DNA of 64,000 nucleotides, taken from positions 255,550 to 319,549 of the forward strand of contig JANINW010000014.1 in assembly GCA_024508935.1 (NCBI GenBank). Reading direction: 5' to 3'. The translations under genes were made by a program, and so were the position numbers. The notes under the pieces are model-generated. The model saw only the letters and a program-made list of their open reading frames with translations, did not search any database and was not told where the DNA came from. This stretch comes from Flavipsychrobacter sp. Lineage in GTDB: Bacteria > Bacteroidota > Bacteroidia > Chitinophagales > Chitinophagaceae. Shown one piece after another: positions 40,781 to 42,671 of this stretch (the stretch's first letter is position 1; every line of letters begins with the position of its first letter).

Positions 40781-42238
40781 CTATTTGGTTATGGTATTTT
40801 GATAAGCTACCAGGCCGCTCAATATATTGCGACATAGTTGATCAAGCTGTTCATCGTTATCGATACGTGTTATATCGGCAGTATTATCCATATAGCCACA
40901 TTCTATCAGCACCGCAGGCATATCTGCATTGCGCAACACATGTATCCCTTTGTCTAACAAGCGCGATTGTATTTGCATGGTACGTAGTTGGGCAGCAATA
41001 GCAGAACCCAGCACCTTGCTTTGTTCGTAGTGGCTGCTGCGTTTCTCTACCATTATATCGAAACCGTCAAATTTTGATTCAGCATCTTTTGAATTGACAT
41101 GGACAGATACCAGCATATCTGCGGCGTTATTATTGGCCCTGGTCACTCTTTCTTCCGGGTTTAGATCCTGGTCTTGGGAGCGTATGGTTATCACTTTTAC
41201 ATTGTAAGCGGCGCCTAATTGTAAAATACGGTTAGCGATTTTCAATGTAAGGTCCTTTTCTTTTAGTCCTTTTGCGCCCAATGCGCCATCGTCGGCACCT
41301 CCATGGCCTGCGTCGAGCGCCAGTACTATGGTTTTATTGGCACGGGTAACCTTTTCGCTATTTACCTTGAACGAAAACAGCAAAACGCTAGCAGCTATAA
41401 CAGGTAGTACCATTAGCTTGCGCATGGATAGGTAGCCTGTATGTTTTAATTGATTGAGCATAATTAATCTTCTTTTTGTGGATGAATAGAAAAACGGATG
41501 TATGATATCCGGGAATTTATTGCCATAATGCGTCTGCAGCAGCATATGGGCAAAGGCTTCAGTATTGTTATCGGTTATGGCGTTTTCGTCGGCCAGGAAC
41601 TCGTGTACCAGTGACAATTCTTTTTGTATGATCCAGTAGCAGGGATTGAGCCAGCACAAGGCAACGGTAAGCTGCATAAACAGTTTATCCCATGTGTGGC
41701 CTTGCCGTATATGGGCCAGTTCGTGCTGTAAAATGAGCCGGCCGGCATGGCTCTGAATATCTATATCCCCCCGCCAGAAAAGGTTATTGAGAAAGGAGAA
41801 CGGCGCGCGGCTGTTTTGTGTATATACAAAATGGAACCCTTGCATTTTTGTTGTTATACTTTTATGCTTTAGTCGGTACACCCAGGCAACTCTTGCCACT
41901 AATGTACCCAGTATGAACAGGCTCACTAAGGTGTATGCACCAAGCGCTATAAGGTCTTTATATGCCAGCCACGAGCTTGCCTGGGCCACTTCCTGTTCGG
42001 TGCCATTGCCGGGCAATACCTGCAATAATTTAAAAGCAGCAGGTACCTGTTGCGATGGGGCATGCCATTCGAAATGCAGTAAGGGTATCAGTATACTGAG
42101 CACTGTAGCAGCAAGTAAATAGATCCTGTTATATACATGCATCCTGCGGTTGCGCAGGAAAAGCCAGTAATAACCCAGCATCAGGGCGCTGCAAACAAAT
42201 GATTTGAACAAAAAAGCAATAGCCGGTGTTAATAGCAT
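40781..42238 (-). CDS. M56 (BlaR1-type) zinc metalloprotease fused to an N-acetylmuramoyl-L-alanine amidase domain
   Basis: The 485-residue protein starts like BlaR1/MecR1: transmembrane helices at about 5-25, 38-56 and 92-120, a cytoplasmic zinc protease domain with HELAH at 172-176 and an acidic segment HEFLADENA near 212-220, then a further helix (about 274-290). Where BlaR1 carries a penicillin-binding sensor, this one has an Amidase_3 domain (about 303-480) with all expected zinc/catalytic residues: His312 (DAGHGG), Glu327, His380 (VSVHVNS) and Glu446 (VLIECGYMDN). The topology places it in the periplasm. It lies directly downstream of blaI, whose stop and its ATG share one base at 42238. 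Presumed to sense or cut cell-wall fragments and cleave BlaI. Confidence 0.88.
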   Translation of the reverse strand: MLLTPAIAFLFKSFVCSALMLGYYWLFLRNRRMHVYNRIYLLAATVLSILIPLLHFEWHAPSQQVPAAFKLLQVLPGNGTEQEVAQASSWLAYKDLIALGAYTLVSLFILGTLVARVAWVYRLKHKSITTKMQGFHFVYTQNSRAPFSFLNNLFWRGDIDIQSHAGRLILQHELAHIRQGHTWDKLFMQLTVALCWLNPCYWIIQKELSLVHEFLADENAITDNNTEAFAHMLLQTHYGNKFPDIIHPFFYSSTKRRLIMLNQLKHTGYLSMRKLMVLPVIAASVLLFSFKVNSEKVTRANKTIVLALDAGHGGADDGALGAKGLKEKDLTLKIANRILQLGAAYNVKVITIRSQDQDLNPEERVTRANNNAADMLVSVHVNSKDAESKFDGFDIMVEKRSSHYEQSKVLGSAIAAQLRTMQIQSRLLDKGIHVLRNADMPAVLIECGYMDNTADITRIDNDEQLDQLCRNILSGLVAYQNTITK

Positions 42239-42594
42239 TATTTCTTTTTTAGTTGTTTAAGCAATAGTTCAAGGTCTTGTACCGATAGTTTCTTTTCATC
42301 TACCAGGAAAGAGACCACGTTGCTGAACGACCCGTCAAAATAGCCTTTTGCTACATTGGTAAGCGTACTTTTAGAATACATCTCTTTCGATACCAGCGGC
42401 AGGTATTTATGTATACGGCCTATGTTCTCTATGGCTACAAATTCTTTTTCCACTAATATTTTTAAGATAGTGGCTACTGTATTCTTATGCGGAATTGGTT
42501 CCGGCATCTGCTTTACTATTTCCATCAGCAGGCCACCGCCCATTTTCCATAGCACTATCATTACCTGTTCCTCTGCTTTAGTCAGTGTCTTCAT
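42238..42594 (-). CDS. blaI: BlaI/MecI-family transcriptional repressor
   Basis: The 118-residue protein has the BlaI/MecI winged-helix start LTKAEEQVMIVLWKMGGG and the recognition helix region PHKNTVATILKILVEKEFV. The C-terminus (about 80-118) is the dimerisation helix pair with the Asp/Val-rich cleavage area. BlaI dimers bind ACTA-N6-TAGT-type operators, and three such boxes lie immediately upstream. Cleavage by the membrane protease downstream would derepress the operon, as in bla and mec systems. It is co-transcribed with the M56-amidase gene, starting one base earlier. Confidence 0.92.
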   Translation of the reverse strand: MKTLTKAEEQVMIVLWKMGGGLLMEIVKQMPEPIPHKNTVATILKILVEKEFVAIENIGRIHKYLPLVSKEMYSKSTLTNVAKGYFDGSFSNVVSFLVDEKKLSVQDLELLLKQLKKK

Positions 42595-42602
42595 TCTTTA
42601 AA

Positions 42603-42616
42603 ACTAAAATATTAGT
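42603..42616 (-). promoter_or_regulatory. BlaI-type operator box 1
   Basis: ACTA-N6-TAGT palindrome, starting nine bases upstream of the blaI ATG. It covers the predicted transcription start. Confidence 0.7.
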
Positions 42617-42617
42617 C

Positions 42618-42649
42618 CAAACGTAAAACTATTTTTTTAGTCGAACAAA
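42618..42649 (-). promoter_or_regulatory. Predicted blaI promoter (-33 TTTG and -7 TACGTTTG)
   Basis: On the minus strand TTTG (42649-42646) is followed after 20 bases by TACGTTTG (42625-42618). This matches the Bacteroidota promoter consensus in both boxes and spacing, the best match in the window. Operator box 2 sits between the two elements and box 1 just past the -7 element. Confidence 0.65.
42628..42641 (-). promoter_or_regulatory. BlaI-type operator box 2
   Basis: ACTA-N6-TAGT palindrome, 25 bases from box 1, in the spacer between the -33 and -7 elements. Confidence 0.7.
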
Positions 42650-42657
42650 TATTTTAA

Positions 42658-42671
42658 ACTATTTTTTTAGT
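42658..42671 (-). promoter_or_regulatory. BlaI-type operator box 3
   Basis: ACTA-N6-TAGT palindrome, 30 bases from box 2, upstream of the -33 element and also 54 bases from the divergent purC -7 element. Boxes 2 and 3 share the same 16-base sequence AAACTATTTTTTTAGT. Confidence 0.65.

Follow-up and report, generated by a model that had tools for sequence, protein, structure and literature searches.

Within the window, the whole 64,000-nucleotide stretch of Flavipsychrobacter sp. DNA that was analysed, a two-gene unit on the minus strand combines a blaI-type gene with a gene encoding an M56 protease joined to an Amidase_3 domain. The features of this locus are as follows:

40781..42238, minus strand: M56-Amidase_3 fusion gene, 485 aa, ATG start (open reading frame, Pfam, alignment)
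41351..42238, minus strand: M56 protease part, residues 1-296 (Pfam, profile aligned to BlaR1 8EXP, hydropathy)
41711..41725, minus strand: HELAH zinc motif, residues 172-176 (kept in 90/90 complete fused proteins)
40784..41332, minus strand: predicted periplasmic amidase part, residues 303-485 (Pfam, zinc ligands, structure-profile matches)
42238..42594, minus strand: blaI-type repressor, 118 aa (Penicillinase_R, 96.3 bits; one-base overlap with the fusion gene)
42603..42616, no strand: operator dyad ACTAAAATATTAGT, upstream of blaI
42628..42641, no strand: operator dyad ACTATTTTTTTAGT, upstream of blaI
42658..42671, no strand: operator dyad ACTATTTTTTTAGT, upstream of blaI

A Pfam scan of the 485-aa protein revealed Peptidase_M56 (PF05569) at residues 165-261 (44.6 bits, cut-off 31) and Amidase_3 at residues 307-476 (138 bits, cut-off 27). 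No further family was found at E 0.001, and a beta-lactam-binding domain was thus undetected in the fusion protein. The amidase part carries the zinc ligands H312, E327 and H380 and the catalytic residue E446, which, together with H172, E173 and H176 of the protease motif, are invariant in all seven members of an alignment of the window protein with six orthologues. An earlier, sequence-only reading of this DNA had placed both domains in one protein, with the HELAH motif and the four amidase residues at these same positions, and our scan bears this out.

Hydrophobic peaks of the M56 part lie at about residues 5-20, 44-54, 98-116 and 276-289; a fifth, around 194-196, is weaker. Hydropathy, charge counts and the profile alignment with 8EXP together predict four membrane helices, both termini outside (N-out, C-out) and an external amidase, so that the periplasmic position proposed earlier for this domain agrees with the prediction from hydropathy and charge.

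Recurrence and distribution of the fusion

The sequence-only reading had itself named a sequence error joining two adjacent genes among the things that would refute it. Of 39 genomes searched, 7 have matches spanning both halves, the window's own among them; within the family, the number is at least 83 of 294 genomes. The latter count takes in matches that run from profile position 7 or lower to position 383 or higher and, with about five candidates scored per genome, is a lower bound. Because both halves recur together in so many genomes, the fusion is not a sequencing-error join. An artefact of assembly or annotation is likewise excluded by these counts, and with 53 aligned relatives sharing 32-49% identity with the window protein we regard it as exceedingly improbable. 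The fusion is found, for example, in Parafilimonas terrae DSM 28286 and Flavipsychrobacter stenotrophus.

Wider scans yielded few additional cases. Among the matches listed for 395 genomes of the class (E 1e-75), those covering both halves came from four genomes of the family and from G651; a scan of 396 genomes of the order (E 1e-120) gave matches in 31 genomes, all inside the family; and a scan of 345 genomes of the phylum (E 1e-70) added one further fusion outside the family, in G1163. Since the thresholds of these three scans favour close relatives of the window protein, rarity of the fusion elsewhere is not established by them. G651 and G1163 hold the two fusions found outside the family. 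The one in G1163 (L347), from another family of the same class, is a compact M56-amidase protein with an adjoining blaI-like gene that has only one operator-like dyad, located at the gene start; a separate fusion or a transfer is possible in this case.

On the M56 tree (FastTree) the fused label changes 11 times, with at least five changes forced, and on the corresponding amidase tree it changes four times, with at least three forced. A single old fusion followed by many losses is the favoured history, not a proved one.

Relationship of the protease half to BlaR1

A profile of 17 M56 parts (positions 6-287) aligns with residues 5-322 of S. aureus BlaR1 (8EXP) at E 9.6e-6. The HExxH motif, the second motif E213xxxD217 and R257, which is aligned with BlaR1 Arg294, are invariant in 90/90 complete fused proteins, that of the window included. 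Phe249 is aligned with BlaR1 Phe284, and phenylalanine is kept at this position in 84 of the 90. According to the sections consulted of the BlaR1 study, Phe284 of BlaR1 occupies P1′ at the point of autocleavage, the receptor has an N-out, C-out topology, and S. aureus BlaI is cleaved between Asn101 and Phe102 (PMC9834060). We read Phe96 of the adjoining BlaI proteins, by eye rather than from a tool alignment, as the counterpart of this last site; it is present in 72 of 89 such proteins and absent in 17. The extracellular loop is weakly conserved and uninformative. Judged by its sequence, then, the protease half is a relative of BlaR1.

Amidase type and loss of the catalytic glutamate

The amidase part matches 4RN7, 7RAG (taken as CwlD from its description), CwlV (1JWQ) and LytH (7TJ4), in one uninterrupted profile match each. 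In the AmiA/AmiB/AmiC subset of Amidase_3 enzymes, an insert sits between the third zinc ligand and the catalytic glutamate. This insert is absent from the window amidase, in which H380 and E446 are 66 residues apart, compared with 109-165 residues in insert-bearing standalone amidases; it is reported to carry an inhibitory loop (PMC8496864, in the sections consulted). On the profile matches, the amidase half belongs with the insert-free Amidase_3 enzymes represented by CwlD, CwlV and LytH.

All 93 fused proteins have the His, Glu and His zinc ligands, and 81 of the 90 whose domain end is complete keep the catalytic glutamate (L057, L109 and L207, which lack that end, were left out); the window protein belongs to both sets. 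In the nine exceptions the place of the glutamate is taken by His (three proteins), Ala (two), Gln (two), Gly (one) or Ile (one), and at least eight changes are needed to explain their distribution, on a full-length tree as well as on that of the M56 part. Because Glu199 of CwlD, the counterpart of this residue, is required for function (PMC8496864, again from the sections consulted), the nine Glu-less domains are probably inactive. Amidase dN/dS is 0.094 for the Glu-less pair L101/L102 and 0.134 for L173/L176, the latter at a near-saturated dS of 2.63, and finite values among the 27 pairs listed run from 0.042 to 0.297. By these ratios the Glu-less domains look constrained by purifying selection, as would be expected of a retained binding domain. 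Since nine of 90 proteins are Glu-less while the measured pairs stay under purifying selection, hydrolysis is probably dispensable in some lineages.

Standalone amidases provided a control (79 rows, of which 78 were usable after removal of one fragment). The catalytic glutamate is kept in all 64 proteins of the long type and in the split protein of L112, and lost in 8 of 13 short ones. A comparison of 9/90 fused with 0/63 long-type standalone proteins gives p of about 0.011, for rows that are not independent and a long-type set that a recount puts at 64. The short standalone proteins fall near the fused clade, with two label changes on the amidase tree. Because these short free relatives lose the glutamate too, its loss is not peculiar to receptors, and the idea that it marks receptors only was rejected.

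Two further arrangements of Amidase_3 genes were observed. Loci L330, L331, L333 and L334 each hold an adjacent pair of Amidase_3 proteins, ~200 aa long and signal-like at the N terminus; at L330, L331 and L334 one member keeps the catalytic glutamate and its partner has Tyr, and the L333 pair has Ser and Met. From their residues, these look like enzyme/pseudoenzyme pairs. At L060:3045-3689, a short lipoprotein-like amidase copy lies just downstream of a fusion gene, its first zinc-binding His replaced by Gln.

Tails, amidase-less relatives and split forms

Beyond the amidase, the complete fused proteins extend by more than 100 residues in 51 of 90 cases, by 41-100 in two and by 40 or fewer in 37, the window protein being among the last. 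The tails of five longer relatives were scanned and match TonB_C, Plug, GldM_3rd or Por_Secre_tail, some of them under the curated cut-off, and such matches fit a C terminus located in the envelope. A cytoplasmic amidase was rejected on the charge bias together with these envelope-type tails. The 998-aa fused protein of L195 bears Por_Secre_tail, a type IX secretion sorting domain, and the 1131-aa protein of L185 bears a GldM third domain, both of which are odd for an inner-membrane receptor.

At two loci (L338 and L339, in genomes G018 and G058), an M56 gene that has no amidase accompanies blaI and operators amid the same gene neighbours, which we take to be purM-like and ribF-like, as those of many fused loci. 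The M56 parts of these two proteins fall among the fused ones on the M56 tree. Because blaI, operators and M56 are kept there without it, the relay need not have an amidase. At L112, from an uncultured Parafilimonas, a separate anchored amidase gene occurs just before blaI and M56; because its sequence nests within 11 fused amidases (the starred set on the amidase tree), it was probably split off from a fusion. The persistence of Glu-less, amidase-less and split forms alongside blaI and M56 identifies the amidase as a detachable module that is kept, altered, detached or lost while the other two components persist.

In L207 (G231), the amidase of the fusion breaks off and runs into other sequence, presumably resembling a LytTR-type DNA-binding end. 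The junction may have arisen in assembly or reflect a genuine domain swap.

The blaI operator and its targets

Upstream of the window's blaI, at 42603-42671, are three ACTA-N6-TAGT dyads. A survey of fused loci for neighbouring blaI genes, a check suggested along with the sequence-only reading, found a blaI gene no more than 400 bp upstream of the fusion in 89 of 93, the remaining four having none there, and at least one dyad occurs within 170 bp in 86 of the 89. The motif is also present at 34 of 59 non-fused loci, which rules out an operator specific to the fusion and marks the dyad as the BlaI operator of the clade.

A scan of ten genomes for tandem dyads gave 20 places (two neighbouring hits in G055 being counted as one), and the reversed pattern, used as a control, gave no hit in nine of the genomes and one site in G160. 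M56 loci account for 19 of the 20 places, blaI having been read at 16 and three being known by M56-match coordinates alone: nine are the fusion operon and the other ten a different M56 locus (of which seven were read as blaI-M56). The one other place is a repeat array; the ten genomes showed no tandem-operator target besides the M56 loci. No beta-lactamase, mecA-like or beta-lactam resistance output was seen at the 20 places, counting the three known by coordinates alone. The chief output of the fusion operon thus seems to be the operon itself. With 19 of the 20 tandem-operator places being M56 loci, the amidase may serve as the sensor and at the same time be the main product; as part of the main operator-bearing output found, it may also act as an effector. 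Single dyads number 19 in the window's own genome, eight of them at two blaI-M56 promoters, versus 73 hits for the reversed pattern, so that single-dyad targets are inseparable from chance.

Genes downstream of the fusion vary among the loci listed, and inspection of these by eye showed no conserved third gene. Divergent genes that share the operator-bearing regions might also be controlled; the one in the window we assume to be SAICAR-synthetase-like. A further blaI-M56 locus bearing these tandem operators occurs in the window's own genome (L253:5654-9321) and at L259, L260 and L264. In these four of the seven loci of this kind that were read, it stands head to head with a transporter gene, presumably of the Nramp type, and a metal transporter may be among the genes controlled by BlaI.

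Proposed mechanism and alternatives

We propose, with a probability of roughly 0.5, that the locus encodes a BlaR1-type relay whose receptor domain binds, and usually cuts, peptidoglycan, and which induces itself. The architecture, the catalytic residues, the predicted topology and the conserved operator from which this proposal starts are given by the sequence. The conservation of the dyads suggests a two-gene, self-repressed unit in which BlaI would bind the tandem ACTA-N6-TAGT dyads and shut its own operon. Its partner would be a relay with the N terminus outside, an M56 active site that faces the cytoplasm and a periplasmic C-terminal domain, where an insert-free Amidase_3 domain would replace the beta-lactam-binding domain. 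This domain would bind peptidoglycan stems and, in the window protein, probably cut the MurNAc-L-Ala bond; a change in peptidoglycan binding would shift the membrane helices, M56 would then cleave BlaI before Phe96, and the main induced product would be the receptor-amidase itself. Binding, catalysis, BlaI cleavage and the direction of the signal are the steps that we infer. Against the proposal count the amidase-less orthologues, the separate amidase gene of L112, the loss of the glutamate in short free relatives, the 17 of 89 BlaI proteins without Phe96 and the four of 93 fused loci that have no blaI nearby upstream.

The sequence-only reading had envisaged an enzymatic sensor, in which the periplasmic part binds and cuts muropeptides and triggers BlaI cleavage. 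The sequences bear out those parts of this view that concern the architecture, the predicted topology, the adjoining blaI, the BlaR1-type motifs and the full catalytic set in 81/90 proteins; sensing by the amidase, its activity and a trigger by cutting rather than binding are its hypothetical steps. Hydrolysis as a general part of it fares less well, since nine of 90 proteins, with pairs under purifying selection, probably do without it. Orthologues with matching neighbours have no amidase. That reading also left aside the operon itself as the main operator-bearing output. A more far-reaching version, which we hold tentatively and would not expect to be right as it stands, is that a wall hydrolase was turned into its own receptor, binding or turnover leading to BlaI cleavage and so to more of itself, and that several lineages later became Glu-less, pure peptidoglycan receptors. 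The BlaR1 sensor, a relative of enzymes that has itself become a receptor, offers a parallel to the Glu-less amidases.

The serious rival to the receptor account casts the amidase as an effector only: the BlaI/M56 relay would set the amount of a wall hydrolase tethered to the membrane, and the signal would be perceived elsewhere, by the extracellular loop, the membrane or another envelope state. It draws on the finding that, other blaI-M56 loci aside, the operon itself is the chief tandem-operator target, on the four catalytic residues in 81/90 proteins, on the shared neighbours of amidase-less M56 relays, and on the split form at L112, where the amidase is a separate gene, as an effector could be. 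Dose control, however, needs no fusion to a protease, and a purely effector role leaves unexplained why nine Glu-less proteins keep the domain, with measured pairs under purifying selection; we therefore consider this rival unlikely, although it is to be taken seriously.

Amidase action frees stem peptides, as is familiar for these enzymes, and a minor alternative holds that the amidase makes the signal: the freed peptides would be imported and trimmed to a gamma-D-Glu-mDAP dipeptide that inactivates cytoplasmic BlaI. A dipeptide of this type does dissociate BlaI from its operator in Bacillus licheniformis, but with an affinity in the millimolar range (PMC3305447, in the sections consulted), and Glu-less proteins could hardly produce it, which makes this route improbable. 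Slightly less probable again is that the amidase locally opens the peptidoglycan mesh, or holds it, to let a TonB-like or Plug-like tail reach the outer membrane. The tails of more than 100 residues in 51/90 proteins and the TonB_C, Plug, GldM_3rd or Por_Secre_tail matches of the five scanned would suit such a role, but 37/90 proteins, that of the window included, have no more than 40 residues past the amidase.

Comparison with known systems

We found no paper describing the M56-Amidase_3 architecture in a search of openly accessible papers; domain lists in web databases or subscription papers may already show the pairing. M56 is unmentioned in the sections consulted of PMC8051824, and PMC12204202 proved irrelevant in the sections consulted. 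In LytH-ActH and CwlD-GerS, as here, an Amidase_3 enzyme is tied to a membrane-protein or lipoprotein partner, on which its activity depends; the partners there are separate proteins, and repressor cleavage is undescribed in the sections consulted (PMC8496864). The window amidase shares its one-stretch profile match, zinc ligands and catalytic glutamate with 4RN7, CwlD (7RAG), CwlV (1JWQ) and LytH (7TJ4), and differs from them in being joined to a polytopic M56 protease. The M56-TonB_C/Plug proteins that lie beside blaI in Bacteroidota belong to the same M56 clade and have the same operator and, in two cases, the same neighbours, but are without an amidase domain.

A close parallel is the BlaR1/MecR1-BlaI/MecI system (S. 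aureus BlaR1, 8EXP), with which the fusion shares the M56 gluzincin motifs, the predicted N-out/C-out topology, a phenylalanine at the aligned autocleavage position and an adjoining blaI with conserved dyads. The fusion differs in having Amidase_3 where BlaR1 has a C-terminal penicillin-binding sensor domain, and in the ten genomes scanned its tandem-operator places show no beta-lactamase or mecA-like output. The natural set of complete, Glu-less and split forms, and of forms from which the amidase is absent beside the same neighbours, makes the question of its function testable. If the family does sense the cell wall, its complete and Glu-less versions would help to separate binding from cutting, and Bacteroidota would have a direct peptidoglycan-sensing pathway. 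Drug sensing is the known task of BlaR1-type receptors, and such a pathway would suggest a role for BlaR1-type relays outside drug resistance.
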